A stretch of 57,474 nucleotides of DNA from Candidatus Treponema caballi (GTDB taxonomy: Bacteria; Spirochaetota; Spirochaetia; Treponematales; Treponemataceae): NCBI GenBank assembly GCA_018066285.1, contig JAGHRS010000016.1:1-57474 (forward strand), in the 5' to 3' direction. The notes under the pieces are model-generated. The model did not search any database and was not told the DNA's origin. It saw only the letters and a program-made list of their open reading frames with translations. Positions 15,019-36,212 of the stretch are shown in pieces (positions within the stretch are counted from its first letter, which is position 1; the number at the start of each line of letters is the position of its first letter). The position numbers were made by a program, and so were the translations under genes.

Positions 15019-17000
15019 TTTGAGACTCCTTTATTTTCATCCCTTTCCGGATGTTTCAGATGTTTTTCGATGTACAGCTTATCATCGGCATCTGCAAGCA
15101 GTATGGCAAGGTCTGACTTTTCTTCAGAGAATTCAATGGAGCCAAGGCTTATGGAAAGCGTGAAGGGTAACCCTGCCTCTTTTGAAGAACTTTCATTCAT
15201 GGAAAGCAGTCGTTCTCGCAGTGCCGGAATGTTTTCAAGTGCCATACCTGGAGCAACAACGCCGAATTCATCTCCGCTCAGTCTTCCGACCATATCAGAA
15301 TCACGGAACAGTTTTTTAAGAATCTGAGCTTCGGTCTTGATGGCAAGATCTCCAATGTCATGTCCGTAGGTGTCATTGATTGTTTTAAGTCCGTCAAGGT
15401 CACAGAAGAAAACGACACCTTTTTTTCCGGTTACAACAGAAAGGTTTATAAGCTGCTGCCCGTGTTCATAAAAGCCCCGTCTGTTCAAAATCTGTGTTAG
15501 TTCATCAGTCTTTGACTGCAGGTTGAGCGTCTGATTCCTGCTGATGAGAATATTCCGCTGATCAAGGTCATGCTGGTATTCAAGAGACTGGATGATGACG
15601 TTGGTGAGGATTTTCAGGTTGACGGAAATGACCGTATCATCCGTATGTTCAAGTCTGCAGCAGATATATCCGTAGTTTGACTCATGCATGGTGATTGCCT
15701 GAAGATAGTACTTGCCTGCCTTTGTGTCATCGTATTTCTCGGGAAGAATTCTTTCATGAGGATTAAAGATGATCCTTTCATCCTGAAGGCTTGAGTAACG
15801 GACTCCCTCTTTATCATTTGCAAAAAGTACGAGCTGGGCTTCATCCGGAAGGAAAAAGTCTGCATATTTGTCGCAGTGAAGGGGATTTTCGTACAGACAG
15901 ATGAATATATCCGTGATTTTAGTTACATACAACGTCATGCCGATTGTTTTTTCAACAAAATCTTTGAACGGAGTACGTGTGTTCATGACATCAACAAGGC
16001 TGTTGATTGCGTTTATCTGGTCAAGTTTGTCGATAAGCAGATTGTACGTCTGCTGGGTGACGCGCTCATCCATTGGATGGTATTTTCCAGTCTGGTCAAT
16101 ATATGCGGATGTATCGAGGTCATTGGTAATGCAGCCGCAGGACTGCCGGTAAACGGGATGAGACTGAATGACCGCCATTTTTTCAACAGCATTTCCCTGG
16201 AGATAATTCCATGCCATTTCCGCAGCTTTGTATCCTGAACCAACTATCGACTGATTGATTGATGAAAGGGTCGGTTTGGTCATGAGTGCGAAAAGATCGT
16301 CATCAAAACCGAAGAGAGCTATATCTTTTGGATATGATATTCCCAGTTCCATAAAAGCAAGCATGCAGCCGCCCGCCGTGTAATCATTGGCACACAGAAT
16401 GGCATCAAACGGAACTTCTTCCTTTGTCTTGTATTTTGCAAGAAAGACTTCCTTTGCTGTTCCTGGAGTAAAATCTCCATCAAGAACGAGATCCGGGTCA
16501 AATGGAATGCCGTTTTTCTCAAGGGCGGCCTTAAAGGCTTCAAGCCTGTCTTCTGAATCCGGAGAGTCAATGAGTCCTGCTGAGAAAAAGCCGATTTTCT
16601 TTTTGCCATGGACGTTAACCATATGGTTTACAACTTCTTCATAAGCCTGTGTGCAGACGGTATGCGTATAAAATGATTTTTCCATGTTGAGCGGAACTGC
16701 GACGGAGAAAATGGGTTTTCCCTTGAAAACTTCCAGCTCTTTTATCAGTTCATCGAGTTTCATGGAGGTCAGGAATGTGTTGGTAATAACAATGACGGCA
16801 TCAATTTCAGGTGATTTAAGGATATCCACCGCTGTCCAGTACTGATAGTCATAGTTGTTTCCTTTTTTTGCGGGCTGACAGATAGTGGCGACAAAATAAC
16901 GGACGTCTTCTTTTTCCTTGAAAAAAGATTCAATGCCTTCAAGGACAGAGAAATTGTAATTTGTTGTCAGTTCGTTTACGAGAACAGCTATGTTCTTCAT
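15015..17000 (-). CDS. LacI-type sugar-sensor domain fused to diguanylate cyclase
   Basis: A 661-residue soluble protein. Residues 1-285 look like the ligand-binding half of a LacI-family repressor (NIAVLVNELTTNYNFSVLEGIE at the start, later DAILCANDYTAGGC and GFDDDLFALMTKPTLSSINQ), but the DNA-binding HTH is absent. A middle region (about 300-480) of unknown type follows, then a GGDEF domain from about 495 with the active loop written SGDEF (about residue 575) and an upstream RDSD inhibitory site. It therefore should couple a cytoplasmic sugar or nucleoside signal to c-di-GMP synthesis. The Gly-to-Ser change in the signature is known from active cyclases and is not evidence of loss. Confidence 0.88.
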   Translation of the reverse strand: MKNIAVLVNELTTNYNFSVLEGIESFFKEKEDVRYFVATICQPAKKGNNYDYQYWTAVDILKSPEIDAVIVITNTFLTSMKLDELIKELEVFKGKPIFSVAVPLNMEKSFYTHTVCTQAYEEVVNHMVNVHGKKKIGFFSAGLIDSPDSEDRLEAFKAALEKNGIPFDPDLVLDGDFTPGTAKEVFLAKYKTKEEVPFDAILCANDYTAGGCMLAFMELGISYPKDIALFGFDDDLFALMTKPTLSSINQSIVGSGYKAAEMAWNYLQGNAVEKMAVIQSHPVYRQSCGCITNDLDTSAYIDQTGKYHPMDERVTQQTYNLLIDKLDQINAINSLVDVMNTRTPFKDFVEKTIGMTLYVTKITDIFICLYENPLHCDKYADFFLPDEAQLVLFANDKEGVRYSSLQDERIIFNPHERILPEKYDDTKAGKYYLQAITMHESNYGYICCRLEHTDDTVISVNLKILTNVIIQSLEYQHDLDQRNILISRNQTLNLQSKTDELTQILNRRGFYEHGQQLINLSVVTGKKGVVFFCDLDGLKTINDTYGHDIGDLAIKTEAQILKKLFRDSDMVGRLSGDEFGVVAPGMALENIPALRERLLSMNESSSKEAGLPFTLSISLGSIEFSEEKSDLAILLADADDKLYIEKHLKHPERDENKGVSK

Positions 17001-17009
17001 TGTGAGACA

Positions 17010-17038
17010 ATTATACTGTTATAAAAACGCTGTTGAAA
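17010..17038 (-). promoter_or_regulatory. Promoter of sugar-sensor/GGDEF gene
   Basis: Minus strand TTTCAA, 17 nt, perfect TATAAT, then nine nucleotides to the ATG at 17000, leaving about a 3-nt leader with no Shine-Dalgarno site. The -35 is weak. Confidence 0.5.
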
Positions 17039-17055
17039 AGAAAAAAAATATTGTA

Positions 17056-18417
17056 TTACGCTTTTATTTCACTTTTTGTGCGGAATATTTTCCTGAGCAT
17101 GAAAGCTGCTGCAACAGTAAGGATGAGTTCAGCAACTGCCTGTGCGTAGCCCATGCCGTAAAGCGGATAGAATCTGTTCAGGATGAGGATTGCAGGTATT
17201 TCAAGAACGATTTTGCGCAGTACCGCAAAAAGCAGCGAGTAAGATCCTTTTCCGATAGCCTGATAGACTGCGACAGCTGAAAAGTCGATTGCCAGAAACG
17301 GAATGCCGAGGCTCATGGCACGAAGAAGAAGTTTTCCGTGGGTAACGATGTCGGGATCTGTCATGAACAGGCGGATGAGCTGTTCTGAGAAGATGAAGAA
17401 TGCTGCTCCAAGTGAAAAAGTAACGATAATGGTCAGGCGCAGGACGAACATTGTGCTGTCTTTCATGCGCTTCCTGTTGCCGCTTGCCCAGTTGTAGCTG
17501 ATGAGCGGCATGACGCCTTGTGTTACACCCATGGAAATGTAGATGGGCATCATGTTTATCTTGTGGGCGATTCCCATTGCTGAAACTGCGGCGGCACCGA
17601 AAACAGCAGTAAGGTTGTTCAGGATGAGCGTACCGGTCACGTTCAGGAGGTTCTGTATTGAGGCTGGAATGCCGACACCGAACACTTCCCGGATGATGTC
17701 ACTGCGAAAGCCGAAGAGACGCGGGCTTAAGGAAATGGTCGTGGTCTTCCGGTGCAGGAAGATGTACATGAGAAGGTAGAGCGTTGCAAAGCAGTTTGAT
17801 ATTAACGTTGCAAGACCTGCGCCGGCAGCTCCCATATTCAGAAACTGCGGCAGGATGAAGAACGGGTCGAGCATCATGTTGAGGATGCAGCCTGACATGA
17901 CGCCGACGCTTGCATGCATGGCTTCACCTTCAGCGCGTACGATGTTTGAAAGCACGACGTTGAGGATTGCCGGAGCGGCGCCACAGGTGACCGTCCAGAA
18001 CAGATAGCGGTGTGTCGCATCCCGCGTGATGTCATCGGCTCCCAGAAGGTTCAGGAACGGCTGCTTGAAAAATGCGTAGGTAATCGATATAAGCACGCCG
18101 CATAAGGTCGCCAGGTAAAAGCAGAAAGCAGATGTTTTCTTGACAGTGTCGTATTCTTTCTTGCCGAGTGAGCGGCTCATCATGCTTGAGCCGCCGACAC
18201 CGAACAGGTTGTTGATCGCGTTAAAGGCAAGCAGCATTGGTGCTGCCAGTGAGACAGCGGCGGTTTCTACAGCATCGTTCAGCATGCCGACAAAGTACGT
18301 GTCGGCCATGTTGTAAAGAACCATGACCAGAGTACCCAGAACAGAGGGAACAGCAAGGGTAGCAACAGCTTTCGGGATGGAGTAGTTTTCAAAGAGGTCA
18401 GTTTTCTTTTCGTCCAT
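17056..18417 (-). CDS. MATE-family efflux transporter
   Basis: A 453-residue, twelve-helix multidrug and toxin extrusion protein, in the inner membrane, exporting cationic compounds or metabolites by Na+ or H+ exchange. Typical N-terminal sequence PKAVATLAVPSVLGTLVMVLYNMADTYFVG (first half of the motif at residues about 15-30). The ATG at 18417 fits the family N-terminus and the promoter. The longer open frame upstream runs through a palindromic repeat. Substrate unknown. It has its own promoter and is not obviously in an operon. Confidence 0.9.
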   Translation of the reverse strand: MDEKKTDLFENYSIPKAVATLAVPSVLGTLVMVLYNMADTYFVGMLNDAVETAAVSLAAPMLLAFNAINNLFGVGGSSMMSRSLGKKEYDTVKKTSAFCFYLATLCGVLISITYAFFKQPFLNLLGADDITRDATHRYLFWTVTCGAAPAILNVVLSNIVRAEGEAMHASVGVMSGCILNMMLDPFFILPQFLNMGAAGAGLATLISNCFATLYLLMYIFLHRKTTTISLSPRLFGFRSDIIREVFGVGIPASIQNLLNVTGTLILNNLTAVFGAAAVSAMGIAHKINMMPIYISMGVTQGVMPLISYNWASGNRKRMKDSTMFVLRLTIIVTFSLGAAFFIFSEQLIRLFMTDPDIVTHGKLLLRAMSLGIPFLAIDFSAVAVYQAIGKGSYSLLFAVLRKIVLEIPAILILNRFYPLYGMGYAQAVAELILTVAAAFMLRKIFRTKSEIKA

Positions 18418-18423
18418 ACCGCG

Positions 18424-18452
18424 AGCATAGCATTTTCGCTTTTTTGATGAAA
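18424..18452 (-). promoter_or_regulatory. Promoter of MATE gene, TSS predicted at ATG
   Basis: Minus strand TTTCAT, 17 nt, extended -10 TGCTATGCT, then exactly six nucleotides to the ATG at 18417. Confidence 0.45.
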
Positions 18453-18472
18453 GGGGGCGCGTGCGGGCCCGC

Positions 18473-18700
18473 ACGTCGTACGCGTGAATGAATACCCAAT
18501 CGGCCTTGTTTAGCGAAAGGGAGAGCGGGACTGCCCGAATGACCGGGACATGCATGTCGCGCCTCGGCCCCGAGCATGCGGAACGCATGCGAGTGAGATA
18601 CCTTAGCGCCGCAGCGCGTTATGCGTGGCACGGGCAGTAGGGCAGTCCCGCTCTCCCGTTTACTAAGGAAAGCCCACCCGCGCATTCATTCACGCGACGT
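18473..18700. repeat. Palindromic element PE1 after superoxide reductase gene
   Basis: A 228-bp GC-rich imperfect palindrome. Outer arms share GCGTGAATGAAT (18482-18493) with its complement at 18684-18695; inner arms share a perfect 18-bp GGGAGAGCGGGACTGCCC (18519-18536 against 18640-18657). The middle contains further hairpins and the motif GTGGCACGGGCAGTAGG (18625-18641), related to one in PE2. The right end encodes the last residues and the stop codon of the superoxide reductase. It fills the whole gap to the MATE promoter. Confidence 0.75.
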
Positions 18701-19076
18701 CCTTCTTCCAGAGCTTGTGCAGGTTGCAGTATTCCATGGCTGCCTGCACATCCTCGTTTTCATTAAGCTGGAAAATGGCGAGCGGTTTCTCTCCCGGCCC
18801 GATGCTTTTGGCGTGAAGCCCCTTGCTTGTAAGAAGCACAATCCATTCAATGAAGTGCTCAACAGTTGAAGGATGTTCCTCACTTCCCACCATGATGGTG
18901 ACTTTTCTCCCATCCTGACGGATAACCGGTACGTGTTTTTCGATGCTTGCATCTACTGTTCCTGGCTCGATTTTCTGCATGGGCATGCCGCAACAGACGG
19001 TCGGCACGTTCGTCTTCTTTACGACTGCGACAATCTTGCCGCAGTAAGGGCAATAGTACAATTCAAGTTCTTTCAT
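18690..19076 (-). CDS. Superoxide reductase, desulfoferrodoxin type
   Basis: A 128-residue two-domain superoxide reductase. Residues 1-36 are a desulforedoxin domain with a four-Cys iron site (CPYCGK and VCCGMP). Residues 37-128 are the catalytic domain with EKHVPVI, HPSTVEHFIEW and CNLHKLW, which supply the four His and one Cys of the active iron. It detoxifies superoxide to peroxide without oxygen release, typical of anaerobes. The ATG at 19076 has a strong AAAGGAG site; an in-frame upstream extension is not family-like. The last codons (DVA and stop) lie inside palindromic element PE1, so the C-terminus may have been rewritten by it. Confidence 0.95.
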   Translation of the reverse strand: MKELELYYCPYCGKIVAVVKKTNVPTVCCGMPMQKIEPGTVDASIEKHVPVIRQDGRKVTIMVGSEEHPSTVEHFIEWIVLLTSKGLHAKSIGPGEKPLAIFQLNENEDVQAAMEYCNLHKLWKKDVA

Positions 19077-19204
19077 AGCTGTTTTCTCCTTTTGCTGGCC
19101 GTAGGACTTGTTGCGGCTGCACAACGAGAACATACTTGAAAATGGGAAAAATGTGGTAAAGAAACGCCCGCAAACCCTCATCAAACAGGCGCGGGAGAGT
19201 CATC

Positions 19205-19250
19205 AATGAATCATCAAATAGTCACCTTGGTGACTATTTGATGATTCATT
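19205..19250. terminator. Long hairpin downstream of CPBP protease gene
   Basis: Perfect 22-bp inverted repeat with a 2-nt loop, starting 14 bp after the stop codon of the minus-strand CPBP gene. It is likely to stop or stabilise that transcript. No strong T-run follows. Confidence 0.6.
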
Positions 19251-19264
19251 ATGGATTTGTGTGT

Positions 19265-19873
19265 TTACAGCGAAAGGGCAGCGACGAGTGTATTGATGAT
19301 GCCGTGAAGCAGCCAGCTTGGGATAATGCTTCCTCCCGATCTCTTTTCGTTGAGCCAGCCCTGGAACCATCCGAAAGCACCGGGCAGCAGCGTCATGATG
19401 ATTGTGATCCAGACATTCTGCGTTGCAAGACCAAATGGAACGCCGTGCAGCGCGCCGAAAAGGAGTGCCTGAATGATGTTGCCGGCTGTGAATCCCCACT
19501 TGTCGCTTATCCGCTTCAGAATAAAGCCGCGGAAGACAATCTCCTCGGAAAGACCTGTCCTGATGAAACCGTATACAAAAACTGCAGGCAGCGCGGCAAC
19601 TCCCATTCCGGCGAAACTGCTTCCCGCCGTTGTAATGCCCTCAGAAACACTTGCCGTGACGAGCTTAGTCAAAAGTCCATAGCAGACAACAGCTCCCAGC
19701 GTGACAAGCAGCGTGGCACTCCACTTGCCGTTAACCTGAACGCGCTTAAGACCAATCCACGACAAAAAGCCCTTTCGCTTCCGTGCCGAAACAAGCCACC
19801 AGATAAACGGAATAAACGCAAACAGCACCAGCTGCAAAAGCGCGCCAATCAACTCAGAAATGAAAACACTCAT
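19265..19873 (-). CDS. CPBP-family intramembrane metalloprotease
   Basis: A 202-residue membrane protein of the CAAX protease / bacteriocin-processing (Abi) family. The three signature motifs are present: EEIVFRG (EExxxR), FGALHG (FxxxH) and the late HGIINTL. It should cleave substrates in the cytoplasmic membrane; members process peptides or give bacteriocin self-immunity, and the substrate here is unknown. The ATG at 19873 is preferred over GTG 19879 because GGAGG lies six bases before it. A TATACT -10 lies at 19893-19898. Confidence 0.85.
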   Translation of the reverse strand: MSVFISELIGALLQLVLFAFIPFIWWLVSARKRKGFLSWIGLKRVQVNGKWSATLLVTLGAVVCYGLLTKLVTASVSEGITTAGSSFAGMGVAALPAVFVYGFIRTGLSEEIVFRGFILKRISDKWGFTAGNIIQALLFGALHGVPFGLATQNVWITIIMTLLPGAFGWFQGWLNEKRSGGSIIPSWLLHGIINTLVAALSL

Positions 19874-19944
19874 AAACACCCTCCACGCGCAGTATACACT
19901 CTTTTTGGGAAAGAGAAATCACAAGAAAAGCAAACTTCCCGAAA

Positions 19945-20165
19945 GAAAGCACACATCTGCCTTATTAACGAAAGGGAGAGTGCGGCTGGCGGACCGTGGA
20001 TGTGGCACGGCCGTAGGCGATGCTGGCACGACGCAATATCGGCAGGTATTTGCCTGCCACCCTGCCGCCGATTGTGGCGGGACAGCAGCGCCGGAAGGCC
20101 GGGACGCATACACGGGTAGCCGGACGCACTCTCCCGTTCACTGAGAAAAGCGAATGTGCGCTTTA
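19945..20165. repeat. Palindromic element PE2 after membrane HTH gene
   Basis: About 220 bp, GC-rich imperfect palindrome. The arms share GGGAGAGTGCG (19974-19984, complement at 20125-20135) and outer AAGC.CACAT. The left arm CTTATTAACGAAAGGGAGAG resembles CTTGTTTAGCGAAAGGGAGAG of PE1. The interior has a GGCAGG/CCTGCC hairpin and GTGGCACGGCCGTAGG (20002-20017), like PE1. Its right end touches the stop codon of the membrane HTH gene. Open frames through it are spurious. Confidence 0.75.
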
Positions 20166-20843
20166 TTCCTGCTGTTTGCTTTTTCTGTACATTTCGACGA
20201 GCTGGTCGCGTGTCACGTTTCCGTTGCGTTCCCGCGCCGCCTTGAGCTTTCTGTACACGGTGTTCTCAGAAAATCCCTGTACTTCTTTCTGATATATGGT
20301 GCCATTACACAGCTGGTCAAGAATCATTTTCTCATCATCATAAAGAATGAGCGACTTTCTGTCGTAGTTTCTCTGAAAAATGTAGTTCAGAACACAGACT
20401 AACCAGGCACTTCTGGCAGCATGCAGCAGGAAGTGGATGATTCCTTCATCATTCAGGATGAAGGCTGTGCACGCGGCAATAGCATAGACAATAAGGGCTG
20501 GTATCTTCAGTTTTGGATTCAGCATGTAGACAATACACAGAATGAACAGCGCTGAAAAGTTGTTGTACAGTGCCGTTTTTGTAAATGCAAGGATAAACAC
20601 GACAACAACAGAATAGAAAAGAAAGAAAAACGAAAATGACTCTCTTTTAAAAATCAGGATGAAAGGAATGTAGAGCAGGTTTGCTGCAGAAAGGAAAATG
20701 AATTTCAGGTTTACACCCTCGGTCATGATGCGGGCAAAATAAAGCCCGGCAATCATAAGAGAAAGGAGTGATGTGCAGATAATAAAATAGTCTTTCGACG
20801 CAGTATGCTCTGTGTTTGTTTTTTGAACATCATTTCCTTCCAC
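20163..20843 (-). CDS. Membrane protein with C-terminal HTH-like domain
   Basis: A 226-residue protein I do not recognise. Residues 18-160 hold about five or six hydrophobic segments with short loops. The last 60 residues are hydrophilic and look like a helix-turn-helix of the kind that follows a YDDEKMILDQLCNG helix, then VQGFSENTVYRKLKAARER. A membrane-bound transcription regulator is the simplest reading, but it is inference. The start is GTG, with AAGGAGG six bases upstream. It is the last gene of an operon after the MATE transporter and nucleoside hydrolase, 15 bp from the latter, so it may sense their substrate. Confidence 0.6.
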   Translation of the reverse strand: MEGNDVQKTNTEHTASKDYFIICTSLLSLMIAGLYFARIMTEGVNLKFIFLSAANLLYIPFILIFKRESFSFFFLFYSVVVVFILAFTKTALYNNFSALFILCIVYMLNPKLKIPALIVYAIAACTAFILNDEGIIHFLLHAARSAWLVCVLNYIFQRNYDRKSLILYDDEKMILDQLCNGTIYQKEVQGFSENTVYRKLKAARERNGNVTRDQLVEMYRKSKQQE

Positions 20844-20858
20844 GATAATCCTCCTTTT

Positions 20859-21785
20859 TTATCCGTAGCAAACAGTTAGTTTTGCAAACAGGTCTTCAAG
20901 AACATAGCGTGAATCCATGTCAGTGTAGATGCGGATTTCAGGCAGTCCGTTTCCGAAAGAGGACGATGTGTCCTCATGTACCAGCGGTGCCTCGTGCATC
21001 TGCCAGTGGCCGCAATCAGGATTCAGAACTGCAGCGGGGGCAGGGTTGTCTCCGATTGCCCAGCTTTCACCTTTCGTCCACTGAGCACGTTCTGACATAT
21101 TATATTGTACCATATTTTCGAACAGATGTTTACCTATTTTTCCACACGGATATATTTTTTTCTGGATTTCAGCAAGCCCCAGTGTGATGGTGCTGTACAC
21201 GGTAGAAGGGATGAGCCATATATCCGCGCTGGATGAGAGCACGAAGTTTGCCGAAGCGATGTCGTTTCCTGCATTGAACTCGCGGGTTGGCGCCGCTTCA
21301 AGAAAACCGTGCGTGCCAATCCATACAATGGTCATGCGGCTTTTTATTTCTGGACAGGCCGCGAGTGCCGCGGCTACGTTGGTGATGGCGCCCTGGCACA
21401 ACACAAAAAGCGGATGTGCATCGTCGCGGAGTGCCTCGTCTATGATGAAGCGAACTCCCTCTGAGGCGCTGTCTCCTGTGAAAGCGGATGCTGTCTTTCC
21501 GGCAGAGAAAGCTCCTTCAGGTGCGGGACCTGTTTCTCCTTTGAATGCGGGAACATCCTGCATATCCATGGCGTCAAGCACGGTGAGTATTTCCCGGTAA
21601 CTCAGCTCCATCGAGTTTTCCTGATTGTAGTGCTCGGCAACAATGCCCTTCACGATGAGTTTCTGACTTAAGAGCGCCTGCGCTATTGCAAACGGATCGT
21701 CAGCCTCGCATGCGGCATCCGTATCGATGATGACGCGTACTTTCTTGTAATCCGGAACATCGTACTGAAGCTTTTCCTTTCCCAT
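20859..21785 (-). CDS. Nucleoside hydrolase-like protein
   Basis: A 308-residue protein of the inosine-uridine nucleoside hydrolase fold. The N-terminal calcium-binding run is VRVIIDTDAACEADDPFA, a variant of the usual DTDxGxDDA, and the NAGNDIASANFVL block is also present. It would split ribonucleosides to base and ribose; the altered Asp cluster leaves the true substrate open. ATG 21785 follows GGAG by five bases; a GTG at 21791 overlaps the upstream MATE stop. Residues about 89-108 (GAFSAGKTASAFTGDSASEG) form a low-complexity insertion resembling the coding repeat of clpB. Confidence 0.75.
   Translation of the reverse strand: MGKEKLQYDVPDYKKVRVIIDTDAACEADDPFAIAQALLSQKLIVKGIVAEHYNQENSMELSYREILTVLDAMDMQDVPAFKGETGPAPEGAFSAGKTASAFTGDSASEGVRFIIDEALRDDAHPLFVLCQGAITNVAAALAACPEIKSRMTIVWIGTHGFLEAAPTREFNAGNDIASANFVLSSSADIWLIPSTVYSTITLGLAEIQKKIYPCGKIGKHLFENMVQYNMSERAQWTKGESWAIGDNPAPAAVLNPDCGHWQMHEAPLVHEDTSSSFGNGLPEIRIYTDMDSRYVLEDLFAKLTVCYG
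21462..21525 (-). repeat. Possible coding repeat, copy G (in nucleoside hydrolase gene)
   Basis: The encoded AFTGDSASEG resembles [10 protein letters not shown] of the clpB copy, and GGATGCTGTCTTTCCGG on the plus strand resembles the second ispH copy. This is the weakest member of the family. Confidence 0.3.
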
Positions 21786-21787
21786 AA

Positions 21788-23155
21788 TCACTCCACGCTT
21801 GTTGCAACTGCTGCTGTATCTGAGAGCCTTCTCTTCTTAATATACACATATCTGAGCCATGCCGTAAATGCCGCAAGAAACCAGACGATACCGACAGACC
21901 ACCAGATGCCCCAGACGCCAATCAGCGGGATGGCGGTAAGGATGAACGGAACGGAACAACGTCCGATGGTTTCCACAATGCCGTTGAGCAGTGCGAAGAA
22001 AGCGTCACCGATGCCGCTTAAGATTCCGCGGATGATGTAGACTGTGCCGAGTGACAGGTAGAACAGGCTTGTTATGCGGAGTGCTTTTGCCGTCATCTCA
22101 ATGACAGCCTGGTCGTTTACGAAGATGGAAGCAATCTGGCGTGCGAAAATCCAGAGCGGCGGCACCATGATGAGCGTCCAGAGTGCCATGAGAAGGAGGC
22201 TCTTCCTGTAGCCTGAAATGGCGCGTTCGTTCTTCTTTGCGCCATAGTTCTGCCCCGTGAATGTGGTGAGCGCCGCCGAAAGTGACTGATAGGGCTGGTG
22301 GGCCAGCTGCTCGATGCGGCCGTTTGCAGTGAAGGCAGCGACAGCCACGGCGCTGAATCCGTTGACGACGGTCTGGAGCGCCATGCATGAAATGGCAATC
22401 AGGCTGTACTGCAGTGAAAGCGGCAGTCCGAGCTTGACGATGTTTGCAAGCGTTCCCTTGTTGACGCGCGCATCCTCTTTTTTGAACTTGAAGTACGGAT
22501 TTGTCCTGAGCGCCTGAATGATGCAGAGTACGCCTGAAACAAACTGCGAAAGCACTGTTGCCACACCGGCACCCCAGACGCCGAGTCTCAGGTTCCATAC
22601 GAAGATGATGTCGAGCACGACATTCAGGACGCATGAGAAAATCAGGAAGTAGAGCGGCGTCTTTGAGTCACCGAGCGCACGGATTGAACTTGATGCAAGG
22701 TTGTAGAGCGACACGCACATAAGGCCCACGCACTGTGTCCGCATGTAGGAAGTTGCCTTATCCAGGATGTTTGCCGGCGTGTTGAGTGCGGAAAGAATGG
22801 CCCGTGAGCCCGCGAAGGCACCGATGCCCACGACAAGCGGCAGTGCGAACATGATGTACGCCGTGTTCACCATGCTGTTCCGCACTCTGTCAGCGTTGCC
22901 TTCGCCGAAAGCCTGCGACACGATGATGCCGCCGCCTGACGCAAAGCCGTTGCAGAGCGCAAAGAAAAAGAACGTGATGGAGTTCGTCGCACCGATTGCC
23001 GCAAGGGCATCTGCACCGATGAACTGACCTACAATGATGGAATCAGCAAGGTTGTACAACTGTTGGAACACATTTCCGATAAGCATCGGAATGGAAAAGA
23101 CGATGAGCAGCTTTACGGGGCTGCCCACAGTCATGTCTGTCGTTGTGTCTTTCAT
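21788..23155 (-). CDS. MATE-family efflux transporter
   Basis: A 455-residue twelve-helix MATE transporter in the inner membrane, distinct from the one at 17056-18417. The N-terminal signature PVKLLIVFSIPMLIGNVFQQ is followed by LYNLADSIIVGQFIG. It heads an operon with the nucleoside hydrolase (stop and start overlap within a few bases) and the membrane HTH protein, which makes export of a nucleoside-like or purine compound conceivable. No Shine-Dalgarno site is visible before ATG 23155; an AATTATAAC run lies just upstream, so promoter and start are not cleanly assigned. Confidence 0.9.
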   Translation of the reverse strand: MKDTTTDMTVGSPVKLLIVFSIPMLIGNVFQQLYNLADSIIVGQFIGADALAAIGATNSITFFFFALCNGFASGGGIIVSQAFGEGNADRVRNSMVNTAYIMFALPLVVGIGAFAGSRAILSALNTPANILDKATSYMRTQCVGLMCVSLYNLASSSIRALGDSKTPLYFLIFSCVLNVVLDIIFVWNLRLGVWGAGVATVLSQFVSGVLCIIQALRTNPYFKFKKEDARVNKGTLANIVKLGLPLSLQYSLIAISCMALQTVVNGFSAVAVAAFTANGRIEQLAHQPYQSLSAALTTFTGQNYGAKKNERAISGYRKSLLLMALWTLIMVPPLWIFARQIASIFVNDQAVIEMTAKALRITSLFYLSLGTVYIIRGILSGIGDAFFALLNGIVETIGRCSVPFILTAIPLIGVWGIWWSVGIVWFLAAFTAWLRYVYIKKRRLSDTAAVATSVE

Positions 23156-34205: not shown

Positions 34206-34241
34206 GCGGAGAAAAAGCGCAAAACCGCGCGCTTTCTCCGC
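34206..34241. repeat. Hairpin repeat R1
   Basis: GCGGAGAAAAAGCGC, loop, GCGCGCTTTCTCCGC. First of four similar units; the left arm GAAAAAGCGC and right arm GCGC.CTTTCT recur in all. Confidence 0.7.
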
Positions 34242-34373
34242 ACGCTTTTTAAAAGAGAAAAATGGTATTTCAGCGAAATACAACATAAGGAAGACATTTC
34301 TCCGCAGTCTTCATGGTCGCAAAGAGGTTTTTTTCGAAAAAAAAGAAAATGAGAGGGAAGTATCAGGAAGTTG

Positions 34374-34411
34374 TACGTAGAAAAAGCGCTTAACCGCGCG
34401 TTTTCTACGTA
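34374..34411. repeat. Hairpin repeat R2
   Basis: TACGTAGAAAAAGCGCTTAA then CCGCGCGTTTTCTACGTA. Compared with R1 the outer stem changed from GCGGAG/CTCCGC to TACGTAG/CTACGTA: both arms changed together, a compensatory change. Confidence 0.7.
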
Positions 34412-34439
34412 GCCTTTCAAAAGTGTTAAGAATCCGCAT

Positions 34440-34474
34440 GCAGAGAAAAGCGCAAAAGCACTTGCTTTCTCCGC
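34440..34474. repeat. Hairpin repeat R3
   Basis: GCAGAGAAAAGCGCAAAAGC then ACTTGCTTTCTCCGC. Same unit with a weaker inner stem. Confidence 0.6.
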
Positions 34475-34499
34475 AACCAGTAGTTTTCTTTTTTTCAGT

Positions 34500-34538
34500 G
34501 TACGAAGAAAAAGCGTTTAACCGCGCGCTTTCTCCGCA
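34500..34538. repeat. Hairpin repeat R4
   Basis: GTACGAAGAAAAAGCGTTTA then ACCGCGCGCTTTCTCCGCAC. Same unit as R1, with the inner sequence AACCGCGCG shared with R2. Confidence 0.6.
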
Positions 34539-34562
34539 CGCCACGCGTGCGTCAGAACGCAG

Positions 34563-34697
34563 AAAAAGCATTTATTGTAGATTAGTGTGTGGTGGTGCCG
34601 GACTGGGGCACCTGCCGTACGGGAGCATCAGCGATGACACCGGCAGGCAGGGGACACAGGCAGGTACCACCACACACTGCTCTATGAATGCTTTTTA
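34563..34697. repeat. Palindromic element PE3 after uxaC
   Basis: About 135 bp. Perfect 12-bp arms GTGTGTGGTGGT (34585-34596) and complement (34666-34677), outer arms AAAAAGCATT near both ends, and an internal CCTGCCG/CGGCAGG hairpin. The right end overlaps the uxaC stop codon. The interior GGGGCACCTGCCGTACGG resembles GTGGCACGGCCGTAGG of PE2. Confidence 0.65.
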
Positions 34698-36212
34698 TTC
34701 AAAGAAGCGGAACGCGTTTCCAAAGGAGATGTCGTTTACTATGCGGATAAGCGCATCCCAGTCTGCAGGATACTCGCCGTTTTCGACCCAGCCGCCAATC
34801 AGGTTGCACAGAATGCGGCGGAAGTATTCATGGCGCGGATAGGAGAGAAAGCTCCGTGAGTCAGTGAGCATGCCGGTGAATGCGCTCAGCATGCCCAGGT
34901 TTCCGAGCGCCTTGAGCTGCTGTTCCATGCCGTCGCGATGGTCGCAGAACCACCATGCCGCACCCAGCTGGATCTTGCCCGGTATCTCTTCCGTATCGCC
35001 AAGACACGCGCCCTGGAATGCTCCCATAAGCGTGCCGATTGCCTGATAGTCTTTCGGGTTCAGCGAATAAAGGATGGTGCGCGGCATGCCTTCACACTGC
35101 GCTTCCATGCGGCCGAGGAGCGTTGAAAGCGGCGCTGCTATGTTCTGGTCATCGCAGGCGTCAAAGCCGGTGTCAGGACCGAGCGCTTTCAGCATGACGG
35201 GGTTGTTGCTCCGTGTCGCGCCGAAATGCAGCTGCATGACGATGCCGTGCTTCTTATACAGGGCGGCAAGGGCAGAAAGCACATATGCCTTGAACGCGTT
35301 CTCTGCAGCTGCCTTCTCAGCCGGCCCCCATGCCTTATCAGCAGAAGGTGCCTTGTCTGCGCACGAGGCTTCTGAAAGCGCACTTGACTCCTTCGCGCGC
35401 TCGAAAGCCTGGAACGCCAGCTGTCTTTCAGCAGCGAGGGCGGCGTCATCACCAAACGGAGCAGCGAACGGCGGGCAGGGGAGCGCGTGGTCGCTGGCGC
35501 GGCAGCCGTGTTCCTTGAAGAAAACGAGACGCTTTTCAAGAACGGCAATCAGCTCATCCGGGTTGGTAATGGCTGTGCCGGCTGCTTCTGAAAGCTGTTT
35601 GATATAAGAAGGGAAAGTGGCCTGCTCAATGTAGAGCGCCTTGTCCGGCCTGAAAGACGGCACAACCTTTGTCTTGATTTTACCAATGGCGGCAGTCCCA
35701 TCCGCTATCTTCTTGTGCCATTCAAGTGTATCCGCGGGGTCATCAGTCGTTCCCACGGCGTACACGTTCATGCTTTCGAAAATGCCCTTGACTGAAAGTT
35801 CCGGGCGGGCGAGCATGGTATTCGCTTTCTCCCAGATGGCGCTCGCTGTCTTTTCAGAAAGCGGTTCATAAATGCCGAAATAGCGCTGCAGTTCAAGGTG
35901 CGTCCAGTGATAGAGCGGATTTCCCATCAGGCGCTCAACAGTGCGTGCCCAGGCAAGGAACTTTGCGTACGGATCTCCATCCCCTGTGATATACTTTTCA
36001 GGGATGCCTGCGGTCCTCATCTGCCTCCACTTGTAGTGGTCGCCTCCAAGCCAGATTTCGGTGATGTTTGAAAACTGCCTGTTATCCGCAATTTCCTTCG
36101 GATTCAGGTGACAATGATAATCCCAGATTGGCTGTTTTTCAGCTGCTGAGTGGTATAGTTTTTTAGCTGTTTTGCTTTCGAGCAAAAAATCTTTGTCCAT
36201 AAAGTGCTTCAT
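34695..36212 (-). CDS. uxaC: Glucuronate/galacturonate isomerase
   Basis: A 505-residue uronate isomerase, converting glucuronate to fructuronate and galacturonate to tagaturonate, the entry of hexuronate catabolism. N-terminal FMDKDFLLESKTAKKLYH and WDYHCHLNPKEIADNR match E. coli UxaC (FMTEDFLLDTEFARRLYH) and carry the metal-binding HxH. The start at 36212 is kept because the E. coli protein has the same length there. It is about 35 residues longer than E. coli UxaC; an insertion near residues 270-305 (SEASCADKAPSADKAWG) comes from the dispersed coding repeat. Its promoter has the same palindrome as kdgK. Confidence 0.95.
   Translation of the reverse strand: MKHFMDKDFLLESKTAKKLYHSAAEKQPIWDYHCHLNPKEIADNRQFSNITEIWLGGDHYKWRQMRTAGIPEKYITGDGDPYAKFLAWARTVERLMGNPLYHWTHLELQRYFGIYEPLSEKTASAIWEKANTMLARPELSVKGIFESMNVYAVGTTDDPADTLEWHKKIADGTAAIGKIKTKVVPSFRPDKALYIEQATFPSYIKQLSEAAGTAITNPDELIAVLEKRLVFFKEHGCRASDHALPCPPFAAPFGDDAALAAERQLAFQAFERAKESSALSEASCADKAPSADKAWGPAEKAAAENAFKAYVLSALAALYKKHGIVMQLHFGATRSNNPVMLKALGPDTGFDACDDQNIAAPLSTLLGRMEAQCEGMPRTILYSLNPKDYQAIGTLMGAFQGACLGDTEEIPGKIQLGAAWWFCDHRDGMEQQLKALGNLGMLSAFTGMLTDSRSFLSYPRHEYFRRILCNLIGGWVENGEYPADWDALIRIVNDISFGNAFRFFE
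35330..35379 (+). repeat. In-frame coding repeat, copy C (in uxaC)
   Basis: A 50-bp copy, opposite to the gene direction, read by uxaC as LSEASCADKAPSADKAW. See copies A, B and D. It accounts for about half of the extra length of this UxaC. Confidence 0.65.

Follow-up and report, generated by a model that had tools for sequence, protein, structure and literature searches.

The PE2 palindrome and its neighbor PE1

The window, meaning the whole stretch of 57,474 nucleotides that was analyzed, carries an imperfect palindrome of about 280 bp, PE2, the arms of which lie at 19915-20195. A sequence-only reading had placed a palindrome at 19945-20165, and this was borne out, the structure being larger than had been stated. 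Its score of 85 in a strand-symmetric palindrome scan is far beyond chance, as 453 kb of block-shuffled sequence gave three matches scoring 30 or more and one scoring 35 or more. When folded as RNA, the plus strand of 19934-20169 reached -123.6 kcal/mol (z = -8.7), a value that none of 200 shuffles equaled, and the minus strand folded less well (-113.9, z -6.9). The right arm contains the stop codon (20163-20165) of a minus-strand gene of 226 aa (20163-20843), and the palindrome extends about 30 nt beyond that stop into the coding sequence. The gene product has membrane segments and, as judged by eye, an HTH-like C-terminus, while a Pfam search returned no match.

The head of PE2 (20019-20089, plus strand), here called type B, consists of a CGGCAGG-14 nt-CCTGCCG hairpin with a stem below it, and was matched by covariance model R3 at 93.1 bits. 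Alignment of the arms revealed four internal loops on the plus strand in which one GNA triplet faces another: GCA at 20026-20028 opposite GGA at 20080-20082, GTA at 20013-20015 opposite GAA at 20094-20096, GCA at 20006-20008 opposite GGA at 20102-20104, and GGA at 19991-19993 opposite GTA at 20116-20118.

A related palindrome, PE1, lies at 18481-18696, again with the plus strand as the fold strand, and was recovered by both covariance model R1 and the palindrome scan. Its head (18555-18621) is of a different type, type A. As had been proposed from the sequence, each palindrome meets the stop codon of a minus-strand gene at one end, that of the 226-aa gene for PE2 and that of a desulfoferrodoxin gene (18690) for PE1. 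The arm sequence claimed to be common to the two is indeed present in each, at 18505-18525 in PE1 (CTTGTTTAGCGAAAGGGAGAG) and 19961-19980 in PE2 (CTTATTAACGAAAGGGAGAG), with a 1-nt indel. The internal motif GTGGCACGG also occurs in both (PE1 18625-18641, PE2 20002-20017), but not at equivalent positions, as it belongs to the 3' arm in PE1 but to the 5' arm in PE2. By sequence alone, the two are only marginally similar (80% over 35 nt, E 1.04). What the palindromes have in common are outer AT-rich and G/C-rich stems, GNA/GNA internal loops, the stop-codon position, and orientation, so that the suggested kinship holds for the outer stem, the stem design and the placement, but not for the heads. 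Helices shared beyond the outer stem, on which that reading had made the kinship depend, are absent at the head and still present in the stems with GNA/GNA loops. The sequence-only interpretation is partly supported, in that PE1 and PE2 form one class but differ in their heads, and the family reaches well past this pair.

A third palindrome of the same stem design, which is headless, was found at 34563-34696. It touches the stop codon of uxaC (34695-36212, minus strand) and folds better on the strand opposite that gene, i.e., the plus strand. Adjoining it, at 34207-34541, a hairpin-like repeat of 39 nt (GAAAAAGCGC...GCGCTTTCTCCG) occurs four times. A separate, near-perfect palindrome of 46 bp (19205-19250), located between the desulfoferrodoxin gene and a CPBP-type protease gene, is probably a terminator.

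Copies in the genome and structure of the head

With PE2 as a query, its central part was found to recur elsewhere in the same assembly, and PE1 retrieves another series of copies. Model R1, which represents the PE1 head and was built from 17 sequences, has 23 matches in the genome, with PE2 not among them, and model R3, representing the PE2 head and built from five sequences, matches six (PE2 and five more), with PE1 not among them. Together with at least one headless copy, PE2 is one of about thirty long, dispersed hairpin repeats in this genome. In the palindrome scan of 453 kb that included the window, six palindromes scored 50 or more, of which three lie at mapped copies and the others are PE1, PE2, and the headless palindrome; another mapped copy, at 151.6 kb of contig C5, scored 48. 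None scoring 50 or more was detected in 360 kb of the sister genome G003, though its GC content is 33%.

From copy to copy the head stays constant, whereas the arms can for the most part not be aligned with one another. The type A head comprises a closing stem and an apical stem, the first covarying and the second strongly so, as well as a tandem G.A step and a conserved bulge on the 3' side, AUACC(U/A)UAGC. Across 23 distinct rows, 11 of its 17 pairs have changed on both sides. The covariation score of the head was 0.400, compared to 0.136 in shuffles, in an alignment (23 rows) that was fitted to the model, with which a sequence-only alignment (A1) agrees for stems 1 and 3; none of 500 shuffles reached this score, and sliding the partners abolished the signal. 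The type B head, a 7-bp hairpin with a 14-nt loop, sits atop the same kind of stem.

Inverted pairs of hairpins, 200-650 nt apart, were seen on contigs C17, C30, C35, C61, and C7 of this genome, those of C17 and C35 being duplicates with about 90% identity over 375 bp. Contig C61 also carries a different palindromic repeat, made up of TTTACCGACAC...GTGTCGGTAA units (locus L088, 6976-7120).

Strand specificity of the fold

In the arms of 28 copies, scored equally for both strands, mismatches were distributed very unevenly, with 185 G.A versus 28 T.C, and 85 G.T versus 44 A.C. Like-with-like mismatches were balanced (42 A.A plus G.G, 45 T.T plus C.C), which means that the excess of G.A is not due to purine skew. 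Windows with GNA opposite GNA numbered 33, compared to two for ANG, one for TNC, and none for CNT, and at least one was present in 20 of 26 elements; two copies with about 90% identity to others (L036 to L035, and L051 to L050) were excluded from this count but included in that of the mismatches. The strand-specific mismatches and GNA/GNA loops indicate that the fold belongs to one strand, which at PE2 is the plus strand. In 22 of 28 cases, the fold strand also had the lower RNA minimum free energy.

GNA, GCGAAGC, and GGAATGGA motifs are familiar from single-stranded DNA, where sheared G.A zippers are exemplified by (TGGAA)n repeats and the GCGAAGC mini-hairpin. Elements of the present family resemble these in having GNA/GNA loops, GGAATGGA loops, and GCGAAGC heads, but sheared G.A zippers are chemical motifs rather than an element family, and RNA can form similar loops. 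The modest excess of G.T, together with the motifs of single-stranded DNA type, inclines us to the view that the fold strand may act as DNA rather than RNA.

Position at gene ends and inverted coding ends

Among 30 elements, a stop codon antisense to the fold strand lay no more than 120 nt rightward of the center in 19 cases, with none in the mirror arrangement, as counted with open frames of at least 150 aa and including one, at L035, that is a 201-aa ORF and probably not a gene. This bias (two-sided p 3.8e-6) was present under all nine settings examined, with the weakest giving p 0.0037. The hairpins sit singly behind ordinary genes that are mutually unrelated, such as those for transporters, a nagB-like deaminase, a MutS2-like protein, and uxaC (names assigned partly by eye). 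With the orientation fixed in this way, it is the complement of the head that is present in the host mRNA.

In many copies, the end of the coding sequence reappears, inverted, on the far side of the hairpin. In a comparison of the mirrored left flank with the 63 nt leading up to the stop codon, 10 of 19 copies exceeded the 95% level of a null of 342 cross-locus comparisons, and three exceeded the 99% level (a spurious ORF, L046, was dropped), with the total beating all of 20,000 permutations; the other nine showed no inverted coding end above the 95% level. In the clearest case, L043, the match covers some 47 coding bases. Since only the coding side can be the original, the inverted copy is the one on the left. 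Template switching during replication creates and corrects hairpin stems (PMC8794818), and is the likely cause of these inverted ends.

Related hairpins in other genomes

Model R1 matched one of 59 genomes, and model R2 one of 274, in both cases only the present genome. An element confined to this genome was nevertheless rejected, because the nagB locus of a sister genome, G001, and a short sequence pattern showed both models to be too narrow. In the present genome a hairpin lies at nagB, and a related one is found at the 3' end of nagB in G001, where, on the opposite strand to the gene, GCGAGTCAGATACCTT forms part of a hairpin, yet model R2 gave it only 11.9 bits; no nagB hairpin was recognized in the other five genomes of the genus. 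The short head pattern GCGAGTNNGATACCWT matched 25 of 274 genomes of the family, of which 17, with up to 13 matches each, were retained after inspection, the remaining eight (G018, G067, G105, G118, G124, G238, G257, and G269) being dropped as they had headless matches only. As a control, the same pattern run backwards gave four matches. A strict pattern, applied to 84,980 species genomes, had a single match, on a Bacteroidales contig and headless, which was taken as chance.

The copies in relatives are long hairpins, the stems of which differ among species and yet pair. Their 7-bp stem was 78% paired, compared to 56% after shuffling, with four rows that are shifted by one base scored as unpaired, and none of 2000 shuffles reached the observed value. 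In this independent set, GNA windows again fell on one strand only (32 versus 0), as counted in those 21 of 55 distinct loci that had alignable arms. Near-identical copies (94-96% over 140 nt) occur within each of the genomes G116, G183, and G166, with flanks at background similarity, and in G001 one left-flank pair reaches 86%. Copy number and positions vary strongly between species. The copies in relatives are not tied to stop codons, and the orientation rule of the present genome was not seen among them.

Homologs of the 226-aa gene at PE2 were present in 36 of the 274 genomes, this one included. The 11 sites compared behind homologs from other genomes were all without the palindrome (scores of 10-20, compared to 69 here), a coarse comparison (12 loci, including that of PE2) as these homologs are only about 49-55% identical.

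Discussion

The open-access literature searched contained no description of an element of this kind in this bacterial group. A known RNA family was ruled out by the lack of Rfam matches, both at eight loci of the family and in the region 17000-22000, where only chance-level scores to eukaryotic miRNA and snoRNA families appeared. A phage or plasmid origin was also rejected, there being no match in viral contigs, plasmids, or phages.

YPAL, ERIC, and the Rickettsia palindromic elements (RPE) are species-specific families of bacterial palindromic repeats. So are the SLS families (PMC2267715). The hairpins described here are similar to all of these in being dispersed, intergenic, non-coding structures (about 100-250 bp in the known families) with a patchy distribution between species. 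They differ in combining unalignable arms with a constant head, in their strand-specific GNA/GNA loops, in their fixed orientation behind stop codons, and in having arms that copy coding ends. Like MITEs, they include near-identical non-coding copies at unrelated sites (up to 96% over 140 nt; G116, G166), but no boundary or target-site duplication could be established, and no autonomous partner was seen.

Several rival explanations were weighed. The stop-codon position, AT-rich outer arms, and inverted copies of coding ends would be consistent with otherwise ordinary bidirectional terminators of great length that were extended in situ by template switching, a process by which hairpin stems are created and repaired (PMC8794818), with the common head as a leftover of duplications. 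Some of the covariation in the arms could likewise come from such switching, with no selection involved (PMC8794818). By itself, however, it would not preserve the GNA/GNA loops of one strand, and should rather erase them; the occurrence of the same head at 23 sites requires copying between loci, and the copies in relatives are not placed at stop codons, all of which leaves growth in place a doubtful explanation.

It is also unlikely that the hairpins are a functional structured RNA family, with transcripts of the fold strand running antisense to the neighboring gene at its 3' end and the head serving as a putative binding site. The conserved head with its covarying stems, the greater frequency of G.T than A.C on the fold strand, and the lower RNA free energy of that strand all fit such a family, but it has no counterpart in Rfam, an excess of G.T of only about twofold is weak for RNA, and the copies shift strongly in number and position from one species to the next.

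There is some likeness to the attC sites of integrons, which lie behind stop codons, conserve structure over sequence, and fold on the bottom strand (PMC8876359). An attC-like recombination site of a new class, working as a folded single strand, could be read from the constant orientation (in this genome only), in which the strand that folds is the one opposite the gene, and from arms that vary in sequence but keep their structure. Compared with attC sites (PMC8876359), however, the present elements are larger and are conserved at the apex instead of the base; neither cassette arrays nor R and L boxes were found, as by eye there was no constant GTTRRRY or RYYYAAC box at the base and the copies stand singly between ordinary genes, and an attC-like site is considered very unlikely.

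Possible mobilizing genes were sought within the genome, and none was found. There is one Y1 (RAYT-like) gene (L066, contig C26), possibly frameshifted near its end, which by eye is surrounded not by the hairpins but by short GGGGACGGTTCTC repeats of its own, running in both directions. At the search threshold, Y1 was absent from G001, G166, G171, and G183, which hold five to seven head-pattern matches each, and for both of these reasons the Y1 transposase is unlikely to be the mobilizer. The genome also encodes two reverse transcriptases (L067 and L068), to which no link was seen. Judged by eye, L067 (contig C56) has nearby repeats that differ mainly in one base type and resembles a prophage diversity-generating retroelement, while L068 has a phage-like context. 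In REP/RAYT systems (REPtrons), as outlined in PMC3733652, palindromes likewise lie near gene ends, with some inverted pairs and a Y1 gene in the genome, but REPs carry GTAG/CGTC tags and are 20-40 bp, whereas the present elements are about 200-280 bp, without a terminal tag or a link to Y1 in copy-rich relatives. No GTAG-type tetranucleotide stands beside a 20-40 bp hairpin. That the hairpins are repeats of the REP type, mobilized by the genome's Y1 transposase, is hardly credible, in spite of that gene, of the GTAG in several left arms, and of the stop codons that REP ends are known to supply (PMC3733652), given that other short repeats flank the gene, copy-rich relatives have no Y1 match, GTAG falls within the wider GNA loop as one of its forms, and neither the length nor the head fits REPs.

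The explanation favored here, which seems moderately probable, is that the PE2 family consists of small, non-autonomous mobile hairpins that act as a folded single strand and have become gene-end hairpins. The working form would be one folded strand (plus at PE2) with a long stem, sheared-purine 5'-GNA/GNA-3' loops, and the conserved head, and a putative enzyme recognizing this form would have spread copies to many unrelated sites. In the present genome, copies would then have settled directly behind genes, in one orientation, where their position and flanking AT and T tracts suggest that they probably serve as terminators or 3'-end hairpins. After insertion, template switching during replication is likely to have made the arms longer and better matched, placing an inverted copy of the 3' end of the host gene on the far side. 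A bolder reading, to be held only tentatively and more doubtful than probable, is that these are a new kind of mobile element, recognized as a folded single strand that GNA/GNA purine zippers stabilize and that bears an aptamer-like head. Such an element would insert behind stop codons in a single orientation, and its stems would take on the host gene's 3' end by inverted copying and so become locus-specific while the head stays constant.

The dispersed hairpins suggest a little-known family of small mobile hairpin elements, in a bacterial family for which palindromic mobile repeats are hardly described in the open-access literature searched. They point to a putative enzyme that handles folded single strands. 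They also provide a natural series on how long hairpins arise and keep pairing, in which the head is constant, the arms are specific to each locus and extend into coding sequence, and the purine loops are specific to one strand.
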